Part shown: positions 22,822-54,691 of the stretch, one piece after another
Numbering within the stretch: position 1 is the stretch's first letter
How the letters are laid out: each line of letters opens with the position of its first letter
NCBI GenBank assembly: GCA_026003755.1
Contig: BPHV01000001.1
Location: 310,001 to 374,000 of the forward strand
DNA from: Candidatus Roseilinea sp.
GTDB lineage: Bacteria; Chloroflexota; Anaerolineae; J036; Brachytrichaceae
Direction: 5' to 3'
Length of the DNA stretch: 64,000 nucleotides
The notes under the pieces: generated by a model
What the model saw: only the letters and a program-made list of their open reading frames with translations
Told to the model about the DNA's origin: nothing
Databases searched by the model: none
Position numbers and translations under genes: made by a program

Positions 22822-24147
22822 CTACGCGCCAGGCACATCCGTCAACCCAGCGAACGCCGATCGGCCCTTCTCGTGGGCGACGAACGCCTCGCGCGGCATC
22901 GCGATCAACAGCGCCAGCGCCACGGCGATCAACACCATCTCGACCGCGTACACGGTCGTATAGCCTCGCGCCAGATCGCCGGTGATGCGCGAGACGACAT
23001 CGCGCAGGTTGCTGCCGGCCAGCGCAGCCAGCCCGGCCGCCGACGTCTGCGCCAATCCCCACATGCCGACGTACATGCCGGCCGTCTTGATGTCTGCCAG
23101 GGAAACGACCAGCGAAAGCGTGGAGATCAGGAATAAGCCGCCGGCGAGGCCGATCACGCCGGTCCCGCTGATGAACATCGCCACCGAGTGGTTCGCGCTG
23201 GCCATGGTGATCAGGCCAAAGCCAGCCAAGCCCACCAGGCAGGCAGCAAACGTGACCGGGATCGGCGAATTCAAGCGCGGAATGACCTGCCAGGCGATCA
23301 GCATGGCGATCAGCATACCGATGCCCCACATGGCCGTGAGCCGAGTCGTCTCTGCGACGCTCATGCCGAGCACCTGCCCGCCGTACGGTTCGAGCAGCAC
23401 GTCCTGCGCCGTCAGCCCCAGCGTGCCAAAGAAGAGGATGGCGAAGAACAAGCGCATCTTGTGCGTCCCCAGCATCGTCCAGATTCGGCTGGAGAAGTCC
23501 TCCGCGTCATCCTCTAGCTCCACGGGCTGATCCTGCTTCCAGATGGCTGCGACGGCCAGCACCAGGAAGATCACCGAGGCCGACTGCATCACCTGGATCA
23601 GCTTCATCGGGTGGAAGTCCTGCAGGAAGAAGCCGATCACAAACGAGCTGATGATCTGGCCGGTGATCAACGCGATCCACAGCAGCGCCATAGCGCGGCT
23701 GCGCTCGTGCTTGGGGGTGAGGTCGGTCACCAGCGCCAGGTAGCCGGTCTGCCCGACGTGCGTCCCGATGGCATACAGCAGGAAGATCAGCGTGCAGAAG
23801 AAGACGGCGACGGGGAAAGGCACGTCGCTGTTCAACTGGGACGCTTTGCTCAGCAGCAACAACGAGAACGGGGCGGCAGACAGGCCGCAGAACACGAGCA
23901 TTGTGCCGTACCAGGCGTAAGGCAGGCGTCGGTAGCCGAAGGTCTTCTTCTCCTTGTCGGATCGGAAGCCCATCAACGCGCGCACAGGCGCGACGAACAG
24001 CCCGAGGCTGAGCAGCCAACCGACGATGCCGGCCGGAATGCCCTCTTCTGCAATCAGCACACGGTTCAGCGCGCCGTTAAACACGACCACGCTGAACCCC
24101 AGGCCAAGTTGGAAGAGGCTGAGTCGCAGGAGCCGCTTGTTGATCAC
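22822..24147 (-). CDS. PucC/LhaA-type (BCH2) light-harvesting assembly protein
   Basis: 441 residues with 12 predicted membrane helices, MFS-derived PUCC family. Seen: the loop RALMGFRSDKEKK after helix 2, GYRRLPYAWYGTMLVFCG, LTDLTPKHERSRAMALLW and LEPYGGQVLGMSVAETTRLTAMWG, which match PucC/LhaA proteins. These help insert or assemble antenna complexes and may handle bacteriochlorophyll. The likely start is GTG at 24147; an in-frame TTG at 24195 lies inside the 7-bp repeat array and is not believable. The array ends just upstream and supplies GGAG units as Shine-Dalgarno. It directly follows pufC, so it belongs to the puf operon. Confidence 0.85.
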   Translation of the reverse strand: MINKRLLRLSLFQLGLGFSVVVFNGALNRVLIAEEGIPAGIVGWLLSLGLFVAPVRALMGFRSDKEKKTFGYRRLPYAWYGTMLVFCGLSAAPFSLLLLSKASQLNSDVPFPVAVFFCTLIFLLYAIGTHVGQTGYLALVTDLTPKHERSRAMALLWIALITGQIISSFVIGFFLQDFHPMKLIQVMQSASVIFLVLAVAAIWKQDQPVELEDDAEDFSSRIWTMLGTHKMRLFFAILFFGTLGLTAQDVLLEPYGGQVLGMSVAETTRLTAMWGIGMLIAMLIAWQVIPRLNSPIPVTFAACLVGLAGFGLITMASANHSVAMFISGTGVIGLAGGLFLISTLSLVVSLADIKTAGMYVGMWGLAQTSAAGLAALAGSNLRDVVSRITGDLARGYTTVYAVEMVLIAVALALLIAMPREAFVAHEKGRSAFAGLTDVPGA

Positions 24148-24158
24148 GATGCTTTCCG

Positions 24159-24214
24159 AATCTCCAATCTCCAATCTCCAATCTCCAATCTCCAATCTCC
24201 AATCTCCAATCTCC
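24159..24214 (-). repeat. Eight perfect 7-bp tandem repeats between pufC and the PucC-like gene
   Basis: AATCTCC (GGAGATT on the coding strand) is repeated eight times without error in the gap of about 70 bp. The coding-strand unit carries GGAG, so the last copies can act as Shine-Dalgarno for the GTG at 24147. The copy number is likely to be unstable by slippage. Confidence 0.9.
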
Positions 24215-24216
24215 CA

Positions 24217-25440
24217 CTACTGCGACGGCAGCTTGGGCGCAGGCACCGGCAGATCCACCAACGGTTTGATCTGCGGATCGCTCACCTTCTGCGGCACTTC
24301 GCCCTCGCCAGGCAGGTAGGCGCCAGGCGGCACGACGTTGCCGCGGTGGCACATCCAGCAGTTCGGCTGGGCCAGGTTGCCGCGCGCCGGGTCGGCCTTG
24401 GGCATCTGCGGGAACCAGTTGATGGCGATGTCCTGCACCATGCCGAGCATGTGGCGAGACTGCGACTTGGGCCACTTGAACGTGCCGTCTTCAAGCACAT
24501 ACGACTTGAAGTAGCCGCCGTAGTGGCAGAAGTCACAGCCGACGCCCAGCGCCGTGTTCATGTGGTACATCGCGGCCTGGTTGCGGTAGGTGTCGTTCAG
24601 GCCGGCCGGCGTATCCTTGTTGGCAGTCACCTGGAAGTAGTTGACATTGCCTTGCGCGTCGGGCCGCGCAGCCAGCAGCTTATCGTCCACGATCTCGTAG
24701 CTGGCAGGCGGCTTGCCGTTCAGCGTGATGCCGTAGTGCTTCATGTCGTACTGCGTCGGATTGCCGCCGCCGGCGATGCCGAACATCGCCAGGTTCTCGA
24801 GTGTGGGCACGTTCTTCTGGTCGGTGTTCCAGAACTGCGCCTTGCCATAGTGACAGGTCGCGCACTGCAGTTGATACAGCGGCTGACCCTCTGGCCGCGG
24901 AATGCTGCTGATCCACTTGTTCTGTAGTTCGAACTGCATGATCAGCATCGCCTTGGCGACGGTCTTCTGCGGCTTGTCGTAGGCGGCGAAGTTCTGCAGG
25001 TTGTGGCAGTACTCGCAGCTCTGGCCCACGCCCGGCGTGAAGTACTTGCTCATGTACTCGAACACCTTGGCCGTGGTGTTGTATTGCGGTCCGAGATACT
25101 GGGTGAGCACCTGCACGTTGACCGTCCGCGGATTTTGCTGTTGCCAGACGTTGTACGCTTGAAGCGCCTCGGCGCTCGGCTGCGCAATCGGCTGCTTTAG
25201 CCGGTTGAGGTATTCGACGTAGTCAATCCGCTGCACGCCGGCGTAGTTGTAGGTGCTCTCGGCGCGATAGCCCTGGAACTCGCGCCAGTCGGTGAGCGCC
25301 ATGGAGAGGGCGATCACGCCGCCCAGGGCGAGGATGGTCATGGCAACCAGGCCAACCAACTCGCCACGCAGAATTTGGCGTTGTCTTTCGTCGTAAACGG
25401 CGATTGCGCCGGGAGGAGCGGGGTCATTCTCGAAGGACAT
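24217..25440 (-). CDS. pufC: Reaction-centre tetraheme cytochrome c subunit
   Basis: 407 residues. PufC re-reduces the photo-oxidised special pair on the outer face of the membrane. One N-terminal membrane helix (about 28-50) anchors it; there is no lipobox. Four CxxCH heme sites are present at about 142-146 (CEYCH), 193-197 (CATCH), 302-306 (CDFCH) and 361-365 (CWMCH), as expected for the tetraheme form. Met residues before the sites, for example in KAMLIMQ and AAMYHMN, are candidate axial ligands. AGGAGG lies 6 nt before the ATG. It follows pufM by 9 bp in the puf operon. Confidence 0.95.
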   Translation of the reverse strand: MSFENDPAPPGAIAVYDERQRQILRGELVGLVAMTILALGGVIALSMALTDWREFQGYRAESTYNYAGVQRIDYVEYLNRLKQPIAQPSAEALQAYNVWQQQNPRTVNVQVLTQYLGPQYNTTAKVFEYMSKYFTPGVGQSCEYCHNLQNFAAYDKPQKTVAKAMLIMQFELQNKWISSIPRPEGQPLYQLQCATCHYGKAQFWNTDQKNVPTLENLAMFGIAGGGNPTQYDMKHYGITLNGKPPASYEIVDDKLLAARPDAQGNVNYFQVTANKDTPAGLNDTYRNQAAMYHMNTALGVGCDFCHYGGYFKSYVLEDGTFKWPKSQSRHMLGMVQDIAINWFPQMPKADPARGNLAQPNCWMCHRGNVVPPGAYLPGEGEVPQKVSDPQIKPLVDLPVPAPKLPSQ

Positions 25441-25449
25441 GATAGCCTC

Positions 25450-26340
25450 CTATGGCGCGCAGGCTTTTTGCAAGCCTGGCACGATACCCGCGCGGCAGCC
25501 CCAATCGAACCAGTTGGGTTCAACCGGCCCGCTCAGCAACACGCCGATGGCGCCGGCCACGGCGACCAGCGTGGCGAAGCCCAGCGCCCACTGGTGAATG
25601 GTGTAGGCCGTCGCGTTGAAACCCATGACCCAGCGCCACAGCAACTGTGCGCGGTGTGTACCCTCGTCGCTGTCCTCAATCTCGTCAATCTCGCGATGCG
25701 CGTTGTAGGACAGCGTAGCCAGGATCGTGGCGCCGTGCATGGCCAGAATCACCGTGCTGCCCAGCAGCGCGAAGATCGAAACCATGTGGAACGGGTTGTA
25801 GTAGAAGTTGCCATACTTGACGCTGAAGTGGTTGGTCCACAACAGGATGCCGCGCAGGCCATGTGGCGGCGCTTCGTTCCACGAGTTCACCCAGATCGGA
25901 TGGATGATGTAGATGGCCGCGTAGAGAAACAGCGCCGCGCTGAAGGCGATCGGCACCATCGGGCGCAGGCCATTGGCCACGGCGCGCGTCCAGATGCGGA
26001 TCGTCCAGAACACCAGCGTCAACGAGAGGAACAACGTGGCGAGCTGCCAGTAGCCGCCCTCCTGCAGCGGCGCCATCCGCAAGCCGGCTGATGGCGGCGG
26101 CGGGTAGAGCGTGAGCACGGGCAGTTCGCGCAGGAAGCGAATTGGGTTGTAGCCCACCTGCTCGCCAAAGCCAATGGCGGTGATGAACACACACAGCAGG
26201 TAGGAGAAGAACGCTAGCGCACCCCACATCCCCAGGTAAATCGGGCCCACTTGCGTGTCGGCCAGACCCTCCAGGAAGCGGAGATACCTCACGGTTTTGG
26301 TGCGCCGCTCGAAGCTCTCGCGATACACTTCTGTAGCCAT
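25450..26340 (-). CDS. pufM: Photosynthetic reaction-centre M subunit
   Basis: 296 residues, five membrane helices. The special-pair ligand His185 (NPFHM) and the iron ligands His202 (MHGAT), Glu217 and His249 (IHQWA) line up with H202, H219, E234 and H266 of Rhodobacter M at a constant offset of 17. Ile165 stands where Rhodobacter has His182, the ligand of the accessory bacteriochlorophyll, and Leu193 stands in place of Tyr210. The first change is the one associated with a third bacteriopheophytin in Chloroflexus. GGAG is 6 nt before the ATG. The gene is separated from pufL by a 207-bp gap full of 7-bp repeats; it is not fused to pufL. Confidence 0.95.
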   Translation of the reverse strand: MATEVYRESFERRTKTVRYLRFLEGLADTQVGPIYLGMWGALAFFSYLLCVFITAIGFGEQVGYNPIRFLRELPVLTLYPPPPSAGLRMAPLQEGGYWQLATLFLSLTLVFWTIRIWTRAVANGLRPMVPIAFSAALFLYAAIYIIHPIWVNSWNEAPPHGLRGILLWTNHFSVKYGNFYYNPFHMVSIFALLGSTVILAMHGATILATLSYNAHREIDEIEDSDEGTHRAQLLWRWVMGFNATAYTIHQWALGFATLVAVAGAIGVLLSGPVEPNWFDWGCRAGIVPGLQKACAP

Positions 26341-26370
26341 AGTTTCTCCAGAAGGTCAGACGGCAGAGTT

Positions 26371-26515
26371 CAGAAGCCAGAAGCCAGAGACCAGAGGCCA
26401 GAAGCCAGAGGCCAGAGGCCAGAAGCCAGAAGCCAGAGGCCAGAGGCCAGAAGCCAGAAGCCAGAGGCCAGAGGCCAGAAGCCAGAAGCCAGAGGCTAGA
26501 GGCCAGAGGCCAGAG
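26371..26515. repeat. Twenty 7-bp tandem repeats between pufL and pufM
   Basis: Units CAGAAGC and CAGAGGC (one CAGAGAC, one TAGAGGC) run for 20 full copies plus five bases. The order shows a higher pattern of two AAGC units then two AGGC units. The array fills most of the intercistronic gap and keeps no open frame linking L to M on the coding strand. Confidence 0.9.
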
Positions 26516-26547
26516 CTGGAATCCGGATCAGAATTCCGCCATCTGAG

Positions 26548-27405
26548 CTAGTTGAAGGGGAAGGACTTCCAAAACGGCGCGTAGTCCCAGAAGTCCCAGA
26601 AAGCGCTCCAGTCTTGGACCACCGTGCCGGACAGCACGAAGCACAGGTTGCTCATCAGCACGCACATCACCGCCGCCCAGAAGGCCAGGCGATGGATGCC
26701 GATTTCGCCGATGCTGTAGCCGAAGAAGTCCCAGTAGAAGCGGTTGACGTTCTCCTCCGTCACGCCCTCGCTCTTCTTGCGCGCAGCGCTGAGGATGGTG
26801 GCGCCATGCAAGGAGAGCACGAACGCGCTGCCGAACAACAGGGTGATGCCGATGGCGTGGAAGGGGTTGTAGAAGAAGTTGTAATAGCGATAGCCGAAGG
26901 CCGAGAGCCAGTCTAGATGAGCCATCACACCCAGCGGGAAGCCCTCGGACCAACTGCCGAGCAGGATTGGGCGCACGATCTGTATCGTCACCCAAGAGGA
27001 CAACACCGCCCCAAAGGCAATCGGCACCTGATACCCGATCTTCAGCAGGCGCGAGATGTCTATCTGCCGCATCATCCACGCGAAGAACGTGACGGTCGCG
27101 CAGAAGACTACGAAGAGCCACCAGAAGCCTTTGTTTGGGTCGAAGGTGATGGCCAGGCCGACGCTCGGCGGCGGCGGCGCAATTTGCCCGCGGATGAAAT
27201 TCAGCAGCGGGTTGTTCGTCCGATTGGGGTCAACGAACAACACCTGCCAGAACCATACGCCCGATCCGAGGATGCCGAAGAACAGCGCCACCACGCCCCA
27301 GAAACCGAGGTAGAAGCGGCCGATCCAGATCTTCAGCAGGCCGAATGAGGCGCGCGCGGGGACGGCCATCGCCTCTTGGCGATATTTCGCCTCGAACGAC
27401 AACAT
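26548..27405 (-). CDS. pufL: Photosynthetic reaction-centre L subunit
   Basis: 285 residues, five membrane helices. Ligands present: His163 (AHLDW, accessory bacteriochlorophyll), His183 (NPFHA, special pair), and His200 (LHGAT) and His238 (IHRLA) for the non-heme iron. Positions correspond to H153, H173, H190 and H230 of Rhodobacter L. Phe178 replaces L-His168, which hydrogen-bonds the special pair in purple bacteria, and Phe191 is at the L-Phe181 position. AAGGAG lies 9 nt before the ATG. It is the third gene of the puf operon, after an intercistronic hairpin. Confidence 0.95.
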   Translation of the reverse strand: MLSFEAKYRQEAMAVPARASFGLLKIWIGRFYLGFWGVVALFFGILGSGVWFWQVLFVDPNRTNNPLLNFIRGQIAPPPPSVGLAITFDPNKGFWWLFVVFCATVTFFAWMMRQIDISRLLKIGYQVPIAFGAVLSSWVTIQIVRPILLGSWSEGFPLGVMAHLDWLSAFGYRYYNFFYNPFHAIGITLLFGSAFVLSLHGATILSAARKKSEGVTEENVNRFYWDFFGYSIGEIGIHRLAFWAAVMCVLMSNLCFVLSGTVVQDWSAFWDFWDYAPFWKSFPFN

Positions 27406-48222: not shown

Positions 48223-49389
48223 ATGACCCCACGGATGATCGCAATCTACGGCAAAGGCGGCATCGGCAAGAGCTTCTTCACCGCCAATCTCAGCGCCAAG
48301 ATGGCACTCAAAGGTCTGCGCGTGTTGCAGCTTGGTTGTGACCCCAAGCACGACAGTTGCAACGCGTTGTTCGAGGGGCGTAGCTTGCCGACCATCGGCG
48401 ATCAGTGGCGGCTTTTCAAAGACGCCGGCCGTGAGAAGGAGCTGGACGTGCGTCACTTGATCTTCAAAGCCGACCTGGGGCGCGGCGCGCAGCTCTTCGG
48501 CGCGGAGTTAGGCGGGCCGGAGGTTGGCCGTGGCTGCGGCGGGCGCGGCATCTCCTTCGGCTTCGGCCTGCTCGAAGAACGCGGCATGGCCAACTGGGCG
48601 TTGGATTACATCATCATGGACTTCCTCGGCGATGTGGTGTGCGGCGGCTTTGCGACGCCCATCGCTAAGAGCCTGGCCGAGGAGATCATCATCGTCGCCA
48701 GCCATGACCGCATGAGCTTGTATGCGGCGAACAACATCGCCCGCGCCGTCAACTACTTCCAGGCCATGGGCGGCAGCACGCGCCTGATCGGCATGGTGCT
48801 CAACCGCGACGACGGCAGCGGCGTGGCCGAGCGCTTCGCCGAGCGCATCGGCCTGCCCATCTTGGCCAAGATTCCCTTTAGTCCGGCTGCGCGCGCGCTC
48901 AGCGACCGCTGCAAGTTGCTCTTCGAGCTGCCGGAGATGGATGCCATCTTCGACGCCTTCGTCAATAAGATTCACCATCGCGAATACACGGCGCCGGAGA
49001 AGGTCACGCCTCTGGAATACGACGAGTTCCTGGCCGTGTTCGGCGCAAGTGAGCCGCCGGACCTGCCCGAAGGCGCCACGCTCGACGAGCTGATGGGACG
49101 CGACAGCCAATCCGTGGTCGGCATTGACCTGAACAGCCCAGACTACAGCCAGGACAGCAAAGTCCTGGTGCGGCGCATCATGCAAGAGATGGGGCTGAAG
49201 GTCATTCGGCTGGTCGAAGAGCCGGAACGCGGCGTGGTGGTGACGACCGAGGCCGGCTGGGAAGCGATCTTCGGCGACCCGTGCAAAGACATGGATGCCA
49301 AGATCGCGATTTTGTCTGCGCTCGGCCACAGCGGCGAAAAGTTCCGCCTGGCCGACCTGCGCTATACGGCTGCGCCGTTCTATGAATGA
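48223..49389 (+). CDS. bchX: Chlorophyllide a reductase, iron protein subunit
   Basis: 388 residues, NifH/BchL-like. The dimer hydrolyses ATP and passes electrons from a shared 4Fe-4S cluster to BchYZ, which reduces ring B on the way to bacteriochlorophyll a. Seen: P-loop GKGGIGKS (10-17), cluster ligands Cys105 (GRGCGGRG) and Cys140 (VVCGGFATP), and switch-type VLQLGCDPKHDS. It reads as BchX, not BchL, because of the LQLGCDPKHDSCNALFEG form and the long C-terminal part (about 285-388). GGAG is 5-8 nt before the ATG. It heads the bch gene run. Confidence 0.92.
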   Translation: MTPRMIAIYGKGGIGKSFFTANLSAKMALKGLRVLQLGCDPKHDSCNALFEGRSLPTIGDQWRLFKDAGREKELDVRHLIFKADLGRGAQLFGAELGGPEVGRGCGGRGISFGFGLLEERGMANWALDYIIMDFLGDVVCGGFATPIAKSLAEEIIIVASHDRMSLYAANNIARAVNYFQAMGGSTRLIGMVLNRDDGSGVAERFAERIGLPILAKIPFSPAARALSDRCKLLFELPEMDAIFDAFVNKIHHREYTAPEKVTPLEYDEFLAVFGASEPPDLPEGATLDELMGRDSQSVVGIDLNSPDYSQDSKVLVRRIMQEMGLKVIRLVEEPERGVVVTTEAGWEAIFGDPCKDMDAKIAILSALGHSGEKFRLADLRYTAAPFYE

Positions 49390-49395
49390 GAAGTC

Positions 49396-49465
49396 GGAGA
49401 TTGGAGATTGAGATTGAGATTGAGATTGAGATTGAGATTGAGATTGGAGATCGGAGATTGGAGAG
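49396..49465 (+). repeat. GGAGATT/GAGATT tandem array before the 7-TM gene
   Basis: Two GGAGATT units, six GAGATT units, then GGAGATC, GGAGATT and GGAGAG run directly into the ATG at 49466. It is the same unit as in the array before the PucC-like gene, here on the plus strand. The GGAG at 49453-49456 is 9 nt from the ATG and can serve as its Shine-Dalgarno. Confidence 0.9.
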
Positions 49466-50164
49466 ATGGTAGCGCATCCCGACTTTCCCCTCGTGATGGC
49501 GCTCCAGAACTACATGCCGGTGGCGCTCTCGGCGCTGGGGCTGTTCTGGATCGCGCAACAGGTTCGCGCGGCGCACGCAGAGGCCGGACGACTTGCCTTC
49601 GTAGGCGTGGCGCTGATCATTGTGGCCGGGACGCTGAAAGCAACCTGGAAGTTGGTCATGTCCATCAGCCGCGTGGATGTGCCACTGTTCAGCCAGTCGC
49701 TCTTCCCGCTCATCGCGCCGGGGTTCACGTTTGTCGCCTGGACGCTCTTCGTGAGCAAGAGCAAGCGCATGCGCACCCAGGATGGCAACAGCACCTTGGT
49801 ATGGCTTCCGCCGGCGCTGGGCAGCGTCGCTACGCTCGTGTTCGCGCTCGCGCTGGCGCTCACCCGGCCGGATCGCACTTGGGTCTTCGTGCTGATCGGC
49901 GTCTCGACCGTGGCCAACGTGGCCCTGGCGGCGTTGCTGATCCACAGCGCGCTCGGGCAACGCAATCGCCTGGCCGCCGGTCTATTCGCCCTCAACCTGA
50001 TCATCACATTTGTCCTCAGCGGCATTGCCGGCATGCCGAACAAGCCGCTGGAGGTGCACTGGGGCGAGCAGATCATCAGCACCATCTCCAACGCCGGCTT
50101 TGCCTGGGCGGCCTGGATGCTCGCACATTCCCAAACTGCCGCGCTTCAACCCCGCCCGACCTGA
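49466..50164 (+). CDS. Seven-helix membrane protein of unknown function in the bchX-bchY gap
   Basis: 232 residues. Seven hydrophobic segments are evident, for example YMPVALSALGLFWIA, LAFVGVALIIVAGTL, LFPLIAPGFTFVAWTLFV, WLPPALGSVATLVFALALAL, TWVFVLIGVSTVANVALAAL, GLFALNLIITFVLSGIAG and a last one ending AGFAWAAWMLA. There is no signature of a known transporter or enzyme, and no conserved Lys of a rhodopsin in the last helix. It sits between bchX and bchY in the same direction, so a role in pigment synthesis or photosystem assembly is a reasonable guess and no more. Confidence 0.75.
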   Translation: MVAHPDFPLVMALQNYMPVALSALGLFWIAQQVRAAHAEAGRLAFVGVALIIVAGTLKATWKLVMSISRVDVPLFSQSLFPLIAPGFTFVAWTLFVSKSKRMRTQDGNSTLVWLPPALGSVATLVFALALALTRPDRTWVFVLIGVSTVANVALAALLIHSALGQRNRLAAGLFALNLIITFVLSGIAGMPNKPLEVHWGEQIISTISNAGFAWAAWMLAHSQTAALQPRPT

Positions 50165-50213
50165 TCGCCGATGCTCAACACTCTAGTGACCGCTCAACAA
50201 GAGGAGACACTTC

Positions 50214-51659
50214 ATGGCAAGCCTGACCGTTCCAGAAGGCAATTTGATCACTCCTGAGATTATCCAGACGCGGAGCAAATCTTCGGTCTCCGACCTTCAA
50301 TCTCGAACGGGCCACTCGGTCTCGCCCGACTACAACCTCACCCCACAGACGATGTGTCCGGCCTTCGGCAGCCTGCGCGTGCTCACCCGCATTGATGGCG
50401 TGCAGACGGCGATGGTGACCGATACCGGCTGTCTGTATGGGTTGACTTTCGTCACGCACTTCTACGCCGCGCGCAAGAGCATCGCTGCGCCCGCCTTCGG
50501 CACGAAAGAATTGGTGGCCGGCAACGTGGCCGAGGCGGCCATCGCGGCGTGCATCGAGGCGAGCAAGATGCCCGGCACCAAGCTGGTGGCAGCCATCTCG
50601 CTGTGCGTGGCCGAGACGGCCGGCCTGACCGAGGAGATGCTGCCCAAGCAGATCAACGGCGTGGACGTGATCCTCGTACGGGTGCCGGCCTACGCGATTC
50701 ACTCACATCCCGAGGCAAAAGATGTCGCCATCAACGCCCTCCTCAAACGATACGCCCCGGCCCAAACAGAAATCACGGCAGATGGCGTGGAGCGGCCGCT
50801 GACTTACGATGGAAGCAACGAGGAGGAAGAGGCGCTGCGCCGGAAGGTCATCATGCTCGGAGAAGTCTTCCCTGCCGATCCGATCTCCGTGGATGCGGTG
50901 CTCAAGCGGCTGGGGAGCGGCCTGGCAGCCACGTTACCTTCGCGCAACCTCGATGACTACAAGCTGGCGCGTCGCGTAGGCGCGATTGCTGCTGTGCATC
51001 CGTTCTATGGCGGGAGCGTCGCCACGTTGCGCGCGGCCGGCGTGCCGATCATCAGCGGCGCGCCCGTTGGCCCCGAGGCGACTTACAACTGGATCAAGGC
51101 CGTCGCCGCAGCGCTCAAACTGGATGGCGAACTGGCGGAGCAAGTGGCCGCCGAAGAGCGCGACAAGTGCAAGGCCATCATCAGCCAATTCCCGCTGCGG
51201 GGCAGAGTGATGGTATGCGGCTACGAAGGCAACGAGCTGCTCTACGCGCGCTTGCTGGTGGAAGCCGGCGCCGAAGTGCCTTACATCAGCACCAGCATTC
51301 AAAAATCGCTCTACACCGCCGCCGACGAGGCGTGGCTGAAAGCGCGCGGCACGCGTGAGATCATCTACCAAAAAACACTGGAGCAAGACGTGCGCGCGCT
51401 CGACCGCTACCAACCCGATCTGGTGCTCGGCACCACGCCGCTCAGCGCCGAAGCGAAGCAACGCGGCATTCCCGGCATGTACTACACTAACATGTTGAGC
51501 GTGCGACCGCTCTTCCTCAGCGCGGGCCTGGCCGGCACCATCCAACTGATTCGCGACGCGCTCGAACGCGCCCCGCGCTACGCGTGGATGCGCGAGTTCT
51601 TTGAAGGCCCGCGCCCACCCGCGCCTGCCGGGCCGGCGCCGATCAACACGATGGACTAG
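50214..51659 (+). CDS. bchY: Chlorophyllide a reductase subunit Y
   Basis: 481 residues, BchN/NifD-like. With BchZ it forms the catalytic heterotetramer that reduces the C7-C8 bond of chlorophyllide a. Candidate 4Fe-4S ligands are the Cys residues in MCPAFGS, DTGCLYG and ISLCVAE. Further BchY-like parts are LLYARLLVEAGAEVPYIS and VLGTTPLSAEAKQRGIP. GAGGAG is 9 nt before the ATG. It is followed by bchZ after 33 bp. Confidence 0.92.
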   Translation: MASLTVPEGNLITPEIIQTRSKSSVSDLQSRTGHSVSPDYNLTPQTMCPAFGSLRVLTRIDGVQTAMVTDTGCLYGLTFVTHFYAARKSIAAPAFGTKELVAGNVAEAAIAACIEASKMPGTKLVAAISLCVAETAGLTEEMLPKQINGVDVILVRVPAYAIHSHPEAKDVAINALLKRYAPAQTEITADGVERPLTYDGSNEEEEALRRKVIMLGEVFPADPISVDAVLKRLGSGLAATLPSRNLDDYKLARRVGAIAAVHPFYGGSVATLRAAGVPIISGAPVGPEATYNWIKAVAAALKLDGELAEQVAAEERDKCKAIISQFPLRGRVMVCGYEGNELLYARLLVEAGAEVPYISTSIQKSLYTAADEAWLKARGTREIIYQKTLEQDVRALDRYQPDLVLGTTPLSAEAKQRGIPGMYYTNMLSVRPLFLSAGLAGTIQLIRDALERAPRYAWMREFFEGPRPPAPAGPAPINTMD

Positions 51660-51692
51660 CCCCGGCTTTCCGGCGTATAGACTGCCTCTGCG

Positions 51693-53234
51693 ATGACCGC
51701 CTTGAATGACCTGCCCAATCGCGCGCCGGCCGCCGATCAGTCGCGCGCGCCCATCGAGCTCATCCGCGACTTGGAGAGCACCAGCGGCTACTGGGCCGCC
51801 GTGTGGACGATGTGCACCCTGCCCGACGTGCACCTCATCTGCGATGCGCCCATCGGCTGCTTCAACCTCGTCGCCACGGCTGTGCCCGATTACACCGATG
51901 CCATCCCGCATATTCACAACATCACGCCCAGCGTGATGCGCGAGCAAGAGGTGACCCTGCTCGGCACGGCCGGCGCCGTGCGCAGAGCGGTTGAGGCGCT
52001 GCGGTCACTTCACCCCGATAAAACGCTCATCGTGGTCAGCACCGCCGAGAGCGAGATGATCTCGTCGGATCACAGCGATTGGCTGAGCAAGCTCGATCCA
52101 CCTGTGCCATTCTTCTGGAGCCAGTCACTAGAGGGCGACGAGTGGGAAGGCCGCGACCGCGCGCTGCTTTGGCTGTGGGATCGCTTCGGGCGCAAGCGCG
52201 CTGCGCCGCTATCGGCGAACGACGCGCAAATGGTGAACATCATCGGCCCGACCTACGGCTGCTTCAATTCACCTGCCGACCTGCACGAGGTCAAGCGGTT
52301 GATCGAGGGCGCCGGCGGCAAGGTGAACTTGGTCTATCCGTTCGAGGCGACCCTGGAAGATACGCCGCGCCTATCGCGCGGCGCAGTGAACGTGGTGATG
52401 TACCGCGAGTTTGGCGAGGCGCTGGCCAAGGAGCTGGGCAGACCGTATCTGTTCGCGCCGCTGGGCATCCGCGAGACGACGGAGTTCATCCAGCAGCTCG
52501 GCGACTTGCTCGGCACGCGCGCGCAGGCCGATGCGTTCATCGCCCGCGAGAAGCAGACCACGCTCGCGCCGTTGTGGGACCTCTGGCGCGGCCCCCAGGG
52601 CGACTGGTTCGCCACAACCGAGTTTGCCGTTGTGGCCGGCCGCAGCTACACCGAGGGCCTGGTGCGCCTGTTGGCCGACGAGCTGGGGATGAAACTGCAC
52701 TTCGCCAGCGGCCGGCCGCGTCGCCTCGGCGAGATGGACAACATCCAAATCCGCGAGACGCTCCACAAGAAGCAGCCGGCCTTTTTGTTCGGCAGCTTGA
52801 ACGAGAAGATCTACTTGACCGAAGCACAGGCCAAAGCTACGCACTTCATCCCTGCCGCGTTCCCCGGCGCAGTAGTGCGCCGCGCGCTGGGCACACCGTT
52901 CATGGGCTACAGCGGCGTCGTCTACATCGTGCAAGAGATGGTGAACCGCTATTACGACCTGGTGTTCAACTTCCTGCCTTTCGACAACGTGGCGGCCGCC
53001 GGCCAGCCCAAAGCGGCAGACAACCCGCTGACGGCAGCGAGCCGGCTGGTGTGGAGCGAAGCAGCGCGGGCGCAGCTCGACCGACATCTCGAAGGCATCC
53101 CGTGGATCAGCCGCATCAGCGCCAGCCGCGAGCTGCGCGCGCAGGTCGAGGTCTATGCCATCAAGCACAACCTGCGCGAAGTCACGCCGGACATCGTAGA
53201 GCAAGCGCTGGCGGCGACGGCCACGCAGCGGTGA
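51693..53234 (+). CDS. bchZ: Chlorophyllide a reductase subunit Z
   Basis: 513 residues, BchB/NifK-like. It partners BchY. Seen: CDAPIGCFNLVATAVPDYTDAIPHIHNITPS (in parts), with the cluster Cys in PIGCFN; NIIGPTYGCFNSPADLHEVKRLI; a central PYLFAPLGIRETTEFI; and the C-terminal PAFPGAVVRRALGTPFMGYSGVVYIVQEMVN. The C-terminal tail (WSEAARAQLDRHLEGIPWISRISASRELR) is the helix-rich end found in BchB/BchZ. The ATG has no strong Shine-Dalgarno; coupling to bchY is possible. Confidence 0.92.
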   Translation: MTALNDLPNRAPAADQSRAPIELIRDLESTSGYWAAVWTMCTLPDVHLICDAPIGCFNLVATAVPDYTDAIPHIHNITPSVMREQEVTLLGTAGAVRRAVEALRSLHPDKTLIVVSTAESEMISSDHSDWLSKLDPPVPFFWSQSLEGDEWEGRDRALLWLWDRFGRKRAAPLSANDAQMVNIIGPTYGCFNSPADLHEVKRLIEGAGGKVNLVYPFEATLEDTPRLSRGAVNVVMYREFGEALAKELGRPYLFAPLGIRETTEFIQQLGDLLGTRAQADAFIAREKQTTLAPLWDLWRGPQGDWFATTEFAVVAGRSYTEGLVRLLADELGMKLHFASGRPRRLGEMDNIQIRETLHKKQPAFLFGSLNEKIYLTEAQAKATHFIPAAFPGAVVRRALGTPFMGYSGVVYIVQEMVNRYYDLVFNFLPFDNVAAAGQPKAADNPLTAASRLVWSEAARAQLDRHLEGIPWISRISASRELRAQVEVYAIKHNLREVTPDIVEQALAATATQR

Positions 53235-53242
53235 GCTGAGCT

Positions 53243-53860
53243 ATGGTGGATGATCCTCTCTACGCCTATTTCATCGGCCCAGATGGGGTCTTCCCATCTG
53301 TGGGGTTGGCCGCCCTGTTTGCGCTGATGCAGTTCGGCTTTATGGCCACCGAATCGCGGCGCAAGCGGACGGCCGGCGCTGCGACGTCGCGCGTGCAAGG
53401 CCTATTTCCGCCTTTGGGGTTGGCGCTGCTGATCGGACTGACTGCGCGTTTGACGTGCGGCTTTTTGAAGATCGGCGTCGTCCGTGGCGAGATGCGCGAT
53501 GCCATCGTGTGGGCCGGCGTGCTCATGGTAGCGCTGGGATGGGGGACGCGCCTGTGGGCGCAGCGCGCGCTGGGAGGCTACTTCGTGGGCGAGGTGGCCG
53601 TGCAGCCGGGGCATGCGGTGGTGCGCGATGGCCCATATCGCTGGGTGCGCCATCCGGCCTACACGGGCGGCTTTTTAAGCAGCGTCGGTTTTGCCCTGAT
53701 GCTGAGCACATGGCTCGGAGCACTCATCAGCGCAGTCATGCTCATTTGGGCGTATGCCGTGCGCGTGCCGCGCGAAGAAGCGCTGCTCGCGCGCGCATTG
53801 GGCGAAGCCTATCGCGATTACATGGCGCGCACCAAGCGTTTTGTGCCGTTCGTGTTTTGA
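53243..53860 (+). CDS. Isoprenylcysteine methyltransferase-like (ICMT/PEMT) membrane protein
   Basis: 205 residues with about five hydrophobic segments and the ICMT-type SAM-binding end: GHAVVRDGPYRWVRHPAYTGGFL, then VPREEALLARALGEAYRDYMARTKRFVPFVF (in parts). Bacterial members methylate lipids or unknown acceptors. It starts 8 bp after bchZ, so it is probably cotranscribed with it. Whether its acceptor relates to bacteriochlorophyll or quinone chemistry is not visible. Confidence 0.78.
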   Translation: MVDDPLYAYFIGPDGVFPSVGLAALFALMQFGFMATESRRKRTAGAATSRVQGLFPPLGLALLIGLTARLTCGFLKIGVVRGEMRDAIVWAGVLMVALGWGTRLWAQRALGGYFVGEVAVQPGHAVVRDGPYRWVRHPAYTGGFLSSVGFALMLSTWLGALISAVMLIWAYAVRVPREEALLARALGEAYRDYMARTKRFVPFVF

Positions 53861-53920: not shown

Positions 53921-54691
53921 ATGAACCTGCGCGAATGGCGTTCCCTCTCCGCCGGCCGGCCGGTAGACCGCGCCCGGCTGTATGACATCCTGATGAACCA
54001 AGTGCGACTCAAGCGCGAGCCGGTCGCCGTGACGTACTGTGATGCCGCGCCGCCGCCCGGCTACCAGCCCGCGCGCGTGCCCGTGTGCAGCATTCTGCAT
54101 CACGCCGAACAGGGCAAGAAGATCTACGTGGATGCGCAGCAGCACGATTGCTACGTCGGCCAATATCACCTCGGCTTTTTGCCGCACGAGGAGGCCGGCA
54201 GCCTGATCTGCGATGGCGAATACCTGACGATGGCCCAGGGCTTCTTCACGCCGGTCGCCGCCAAGCGCAACAAGCAGCAGAGCTACACGCTGCCGGTTGG
54301 AGCAATTGCTGCCATCGCCGCTGCGCCGTTGCGCGACCTCGACGCGGACGCGCCGATGGACTTACTGTGCATCATCACCGACGCGCAGCGCGCCATGCAG
54401 ATCGCTGGCGCGGCCAGCGTGCGCGAAGGGACGTTGCCTCACGGCGAGTTGGGGCCATCATCGTGTTCGTCGCTGTTCGCCGCGCCGTGGCACACGCAGA
54501 ACACGGTGTTCGCCCTGGGCGAGGGCGGCGGGCGGGGCTTCAATCACGTCGCCAGCGGCGAGATGTTCGTGGCGCTGCCGGCGCATCATATCGCCTACGT
54601 GATCGAGATGTTCGATCACTTCTGGTTCAAGCCCGACGAGATGCGCCGGCTGATGTTCCCCAGCCACGCGGCTGGAAGCGCGCCACGCTAA
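53921..54691 (+). CDS. DUF169-domain protein
   Basis: 256 residues. DUF169 marks: an N-terminal LYDILMNQVRLKREPVAV, VPVCSILHHAEQGKKIYVDAQQHDCYVG, with several Cys/His, CDGEYLTMAQGFF, and the C-terminal FDHFWFKPDEMRRLMFP. The Cys and His cluster could bind metal or a cofactor. The domain has no agreed function. It follows the ICMT-like gene by 60 bp and ends the bch gene run before a terminator. Confidence 0.75.
   Translation: MNLREWRSLSAGRPVDRARLYDILMNQVRLKREPVAVTYCDAAPPPGYQPARVPVCSILHHAEQGKKIYVDAQQHDCYVGQYHLGFLPHEEAGSLICDGEYLTMAQGFFTPVAAKRNKQQSYTLPVGAIAAIAAAPLRDLDADAPMDLLCIITDAQRAMQIAGAASVREGTLPHGELGPSSCSSLFAAPWHTQNTVFALGEGGGRGFNHVASGEMFVALPAHHIAYVIEMFDHFWFKPDEMRRLMFPSHAAGSAPR

Follow-up and report, generated by a model that had tools for sequence, protein, structure and literature searches.

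The window, a 64,000-nucleotide stretch of Candidatus Roseilinea DNA from a hot-spring phototroph, carries the chlorophyllide reductase genes bchX, bchY and bchZ on its forward strand, each scoring above the cut-off of its family model (Table 1). Between bchX, 76 bases upstream, and bchY, 49 bases downstream, lies a same-strand gene for a seven-helix membrane protein. The first-pass annotation had described this gene as well formed, as pointing in the same direction as the reductase genes and as belonging to no recognisable family, and our results bear out this description. Indeed, the open reading frame runs from an ATG to a stop and is confirmed as a real gene, beyond a chance ORF; its conserved slot and its dN/dS (see below) rule out a chance or shadow frame. 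A 272-aa ORF with a TTG start (49408-50226) overlaps it in another frame and, together with the minus-strand ORFs over the gene, is read as a shadow frame; blastp matches between such frames in other loci arise because the real gene is conserved. Note that a simple repeat with a GAGATT unit fills positions 49390-49465 between bchX and the seven-helix gene and is absent from the copy of one related genome, NK_OTU-006 (G002).

Table 1. Features of the bch locus, conserved motifs of the seven-helix protein and loci of the related gene cluster
Feature	Position	Strand	Details
bchX, chlorophyllide a reductase iron protein	48223..49389	+	TIGR02016 365.8 bits, cut-off 331.2
Seven-helix protein gene	49466..50164	+	ATG start, stop ends at 50164, 232 aa; undescribed family, bch-linked clade
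TM1 start motif A-L-Q-N-Y-M-P-V, residues 12-19	49499..49522	+	A12 and P18 invariant across the 33 aligned sequences
TM2 motif GTLKATWKL, residues 55-63	49628..49654	+	K58 and K62 invariant across the 33 aligned sequences; outer half of helix
TM7 start motif H-W-G-E-Q, residues 198-202	50057..50071	+	H198 fixed only in the bch-linked clade
bchY	50214..51659	+	TIGR02015 460.5 bits, cut-off 425.15
bchZ	51693..53234	+	TIGR02014 557.5 bits, cut-off 529
ICMT/PEMT-type membrane methyltransferase, after bchZ	53243..53860	+	
DUF169 protein	53921..54691	+	
Recurrent RCCR/Rieske-type cluster	L025, L037-L040, L063-L074, L079, L080, L121, L122, L125		

The AlphaFold2 model, built on an alignment of 33 sequences, predicts seven long helices (residues 16-36, 38-68, 79-102, 114-133, 138-164, 168-188 and 195-226) with a mean pLDDT of 92.8 and a pTM of 0.88. 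The K/R counts place loops 1, 3 and 5 and the C-terminus inside, and the predicted topology is therefore N-out/C-in. No Pfam or NCBIfam model reached its cut-off for the protein, either alone or via its 32 relatives, no family of these two collections was common to the relatives, and no transporter family was matched. In addition, the family profile gave a single match among the sequences of solved structures (E 0.7), a BFVD search with the protein returned nothing significant, and the family is undescribed in the open-licence papers searched. Several names came up below threshold, namely DUF2569 (E 0.026), DUF6796 (three members, E 1e-4), sideroflexin and some more; none extended across the family, and they were set aside. 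Membership was defined by the invariant residues A12, P18, G55, K58, K62 and G86 and the nearly invariant W61 and W199, all of which the window protein carries.

Foldseek and VIA-align ranked GPCRs and the alkaline ceramidase ACER3 at the top for the model (Foldseek E above 0.004; VIA Z 9 to 10.5), the GPCR-like fold comparison giving a Z of about 10, which is within the range common for helical bundles. The general helix arrangement of GPCR/rhodopsin-type and ACER3 bundles is alike, but no significant sequence relation was found and the TM7 lysine for retinal is missing from the window protein; such an arrangement is common among helical bundles and indicates no function. A microbial rhodopsin was ruled out on the same helix (195-226), which holds no Schiff-base lysine. 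The photosynthetic complex assembly protein PuhE/DUF3623 (PF12291) is likewise an integral membrane protein of photosynthesis gene clusters and, in the sister phototroph G014, occupies the bchX-bchY slot itself (L046:5166-6044, PF12291 E 2.8e-99); however, PF12291 matches neither the window protein nor its 32 relatives in Pfam, and a relation was rejected on this ground. The 3-vinyl hydratase BchF was rejected in the same manner (no PF07284 match for the protein or its relatives), and a replacement of BchF is ruled out by a separate bchF in the same genome (G000:C5:164777-165181). PucC/LhaA-type and other MFS transporters were discarded, with no Pfam match and seven helices instead of 12. A possible likeness to the fungal membrane terpene cyclases Pyr4/PaxB was also considered. 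Finally, a heme b membrane protein or a thiol redox sensor was rejected, as the window protein contains no cysteine and no bis-His site, only one histidine being invariant within the bch-linked clade; the redox sensing role put forward by the first-pass annotation falls on the same two observations.

An orthologue fills the bchX-bchY slot in all nine genomes of the Roseilinea genus, one copy being broken. The same holds for another genus of the family, represented by three genomes, except that in one of them (G022) the contig ends inside the gene and only the bchY side is visible. Between species, the intact copies display dN/dS values of 0.11-0.33, with 0.09-0.12 for bchY, and are under purifying selection. 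The comparison of the window with its nearest intact relative (G007) gave 0.40, and selection on the window copy may therefore be weaker. The NK_OTU-006 copy (L033 7917-8463) has lost about 225 bases at its 5′ end, start codon included, and a 7-base duplication near its end shifts the frame; against the window, its dN/dS is 0.83, while that of bchY is 0.065. Several independent lesions and this neutral-like rate argue for decay, so that the copy is regarded as a pseudogene, with an assembly fault possible since the genome is a MAG. In addition, no match to the protein was found in five same-family phototrophs of other genera that carry bchY (G013, G014, G015, G020 and G024). Because one copy is broken and five sister phototrophs are without the gene, the gene is conserved but dispensable and any role of the protein must be dispensable or replaceable; a part in bacteriochlorophyll synthesis had been proposed from the position of the gene, and an essential one is unlikely on these grounds. 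Note that dS differs strongly between neighbours in 48223-53234 (0.095 for the seven-helix gene vs 0.42 for bchY between the window and G007, and 0.56 vs 0.36 between the window and G003), which suggests recombination inside the bch block.

The wider family was surveyed by scanning the genome contigs and 400 Chloroflexota genomes. In the resulting tree, which is unrooted and contains no outgroup, the bch-linked sequences form one clade with a support of 100/100, beside a catabolic-cluster clade that includes a 40% paralogue from the same genome. Homologues in catabolic-looking clusters were found in Anaerolineae-type genomes, in Caldilineales and in actinobacteria (Nonomuraea, Actinocorallia), while a divergent Herpetosiphon-like group has lost K58, W199 and E201, and the gut Bacillota are represented by Oscillospiraceae and Erysipelotrichaceae. 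Two divergent family copies lie within about 9 kb in gut Oscillospiraceae (L082, L087-L090). The company with bchXYZ, which the first-pass annotation had named as a check on homologues, is kept in the bchX-bchY slot of two genera, but not in Chloroflexaceae-like phototrophs (G174 and G290 among them), where the homologue stands alone, far from bchY and with changing neighbours. By hand count, bchY is present in 22 of the 32 family-bearing genomes among the 400 Chloroflexota, most of which belong to one lineage and are not independent. Phototrophy is thus no common trait of the wider family; the changing settings and the occurrence in non-phototrophs, actinobacteria and gut Bacillota go part of the way towards what the first-pass annotation had named as refuting its reading.

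The same-genome paralogue (G000:C1:408362-409021, 39-40% identity) adjoins a gene for a protein like red chlorophyll catabolite reductase (RCCR), and the closest relatives lie in a recurrent, catabolic-looking cluster (Table 1) of RCCR-like, Rieske oxygenase, FAD monooxygenase, maleate-isomerase-like and amidase genes, with nitrilase, alpha/beta hydrolase, NicF-like amidase and CaiB as further members and a gene set that differs between loci. The seven-helix proteins of this cluster share 40% identity, equal length and the same invariant residues with the window protein, but they sit in another operon and carry D15, Q198 and N205 instead of N15, H198 and S205. The RCCR-like protein matches Arabidopsis RCCR (phmmer 5e-8) and Pfam PF06405, and the closest solved structures of one Rieske protein (L074:4415-5542) are SxtDIOX/SxtT, NdmA and dicamba demethylase. 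The RCCR-like and Rieske neighbours recall the plant RCCR pathway; however, the bacterial RCCR-like proteins are distant from plant RCCR, and the Rieske protein need not be PAO. To our knowledge, the seven-helix protein has no plant counterpart. Of the 400 Chloroflexota genomes, 3 carry RCCR, and each of these also belongs to the 32 that have the seven-helix family, a co-occurrence with a probability of about 5e-4 (hypergeometric, calculated by hand and ignoring the kinship of genomes); in two of the three, the RCCR and seven-helix genes are not neighbours.

The order of enzymes would suit the opening of pyrrole rings to substituted maleates that enter central metabolism, and the recurrent cluster may be an undescribed bacterial route of tetrapyrrole breakdown; no RCCR-like catabolic cluster in Chloroflexota was described in the open-licence papers searched. 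In many of these clusters, a second seven-helix protein precedes the first, whereas in Roseilinea the two are not adjacent. There, the second protein, which carries a GLxYDN motif, lies in a second part of the cluster near position 998 kb of G000:C1 (L141; also L142) beside amidohydrolase, CaiB, aconitase-type hydratase, HMG-CoA-lyase-like and acyl-CoA dehydrogenase genes, and, among the genomes scanned, it is restricted to the five of the genus that also have the RCCR cluster. Both seven-helix models appear GPCR-like to Foldseek, and homology of the second protein to the first was rejected, as hhalign found none (probability 0.4%).

In the predicted topology, conserved residues cluster in the outer helix halves (P18, K58, W61, K62, G86, W199 and E201; permutation p 0.0005), E201 of TM7 being nearly invariant. 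All ten bch-linked sequences share N15, A54, R69, K193, H198 and S205, while the catabolic-cluster relatives have D15, G54, mostly G69, Q or R193, Q198 (one E) and N205 at these sites. Residue 15 of the TM1 motif is thus asparagine throughout the bch-linked clade and aspartate in nearly all relatives, and H198, the sole invariant histidine of the clade, is present in 10 of its 10 sequences and absent from every other group checked.

Altogether, we tentatively regard the seven-helix protein as a putative tetrapyrrole-binding or transfer protein that aids chlorophyllide reductase, a reading to which we give somewhat less than an even chance. It is suggested by the slot kept in two genera, purifying selection, the fully supported clade and the RCCR-like neighbours of the relatives, as well as by the RCCR co-occurrence, the outer-half conservation and the clade-specific N15, H198 and S205. 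The integral N-out/C-in bundle would most likely bind a tetrapyrrole intermediate in an outer-side pocket made up of the outer half of TM2 together with the beginnings of TM1 and TM7 (P18, K58, W61, K62, W199 and E201), and would hold or pass on a chlorophyllide-type pigment beside BchXYZ, with H198 as a possible axial ligand of the magnesium of the chlorin. The protein would share an ancestor with the membrane proteins of the RCCR/Rieske-type clusters and would have entered the bch operon by recruitment in the common ancestor of the two genera of phototrophic Thermoflexales-type Anaerolineae, the pocket changes D15 to N, Q198 to H and N205 to S being fixed thereafter; we infer that its nesting in the unrooted tree is more simply read as recruitment from a catabolic-type ancestor. 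Most likely, the protein is a dispensable helper of chlorophyllide reductase and performs no essential step. The pigment role of the first-pass annotation survives in part, since relatives sit with RCCR-like genes and a pigment-type ligand is putative, but the link to bch genes does not extend to the whole family. Against the tetrapyrrole reading, the substrate of the catabolic clusters may not be chlorophyll, as their RCCR-like proteins are distant from the plant enzyme, and the stand-alone Chloroflexaceae-like homologue would be equally explained by a general function. What is new here is a conserved extra protein of the bch cluster with a candidate pigment site, whose closest relatives belong to the recurrent cluster described above.

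The setting of this protein includes several gaps in the pathway. A scan of 29 genomes, among them the majority of the phototrophs of this family (G020, G022 and G024 lie outside), gave no BchM, BchE or BchN above cut-off in any of them, consistent with phototrophic Anaerolineae lacking BchM, BchE and BchLNB (PMC8446752, PMC5826079). How bacteriochlorophyll a is made in these organisms is a question of the literature (PMC8446752, PMC5826079, PMC7842958). The ICMT/PEMT-type gene follows bchZ in every family phototroph whose downstream flank is covered; it is not beside bchYZ in the two Chloroflexus-like genomes, the Roseiflexus-like genome and the one further genome checked. Since ICMT, like BchM, methylates a carboxyl group, the ICMT-like gene is a candidate for the missing BchM, and a better one than the seven-helix protein; this pointer is also new. 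A non-orthologous replacement for BchM, BchE or BchLNB by the seven-helix protein itself, as its place among bch genes and the missing steps could suggest, is extremely improbable: besides the better candidate, the protein offers no cofactor site, its NK_OTU-006 copy is broken, and it is absent from the five sister phototrophs, three of which (G013, G014 and G015) show the same BchM, BchE and BchLNB gaps.

The same gaps would make the uptake of a later intermediate useful, and a small transporter or permease for a hydrophobic or anionic metabolite, although rather unlikely, has to be weighed. It would carry tetrapyrrole or breakdown acids in the catabolic clusters and take up mat-cyanobacterial chlorophyll(ide) in the bch-linked clade, in keeping with the family's place as the membrane component of a catabolic cluster across many lineages and with an outward-facing conserved site that includes the invariant TM2 lysine and the nearly invariant TM7 glutamate. 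However, the seven helices show no visible repeat, transporter families gave no match, some clusters (L070) already contain MFS proteins, and sister phototrophs with the same gaps do without the protein. Moreover, D15, the sole acidic residue of the TM1 motif, is replaced by asparagine in the bch-linked clade, which also counts against an unlikely membrane enzyme whose target would be a side group of some hydrophobic substrate, tetrapyrrole or other, and whose catalytic residues would be K58, K62 and E201 (and D15 outside the bch-linked clade). Charged invariant residues within helices, catabolic enzymes as gene neighbours and the rank of ACER3, a seven-helix enzyme, among the top VIA-align rows (Z 10.3) speak for such an activity, but a Z near 10 is, by the tool's own remark, common for helical bundles, no metal-site pattern is present, and we know of no orphan reaction at the chlorophyllide reductase step that requires an enzyme.

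It is decidedly unlikely that the protein serves the membrane or the stress response in a general way, is unconnected with pigments and merely happens to be fixed in the bch operon. Such a role would account for the loss in NK_OTU-006, for the stand-alone homologues with changing neighbours in Chloroflexaceae-like genomes and for those of Herpetosiphon-like, actinobacterial and gut genomes, but not for a gene kept between bchX and bchY across two genera, for the clade's own fixed changes at the conserved site or for Anaerolineae relatives gathered in one recurrent cluster. Returning to tetrapyrrole binding or transfer, a narrower version in which the bch-linked clade is an acceptor is very improbable: H198 would receive exogenous chlorophyllide a and present it to BchXYZ, Roseilinea and its relatives would be without BchM, BchE and BchLNB because they take the chlorophyll breakdown products of mat cyanobacteria, and the protein would have been recruited from a pigment-degradation system. 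Chlorophyll salvage by Roseilinea was not described in the open-licence papers searched.

Two further observations concern the surroundings of the locus. The DUF169 protein lies near bchZ across the family's phototrophs, and in one Roseiflexus-like genome (L146) a homologue adjoins bchX. Elsewhere in the window, the minus strand of 22822-27405 encodes PufL and PufM in separate genes, along with a PufC-like cytochrome and what may be a pigment-protein transporter.
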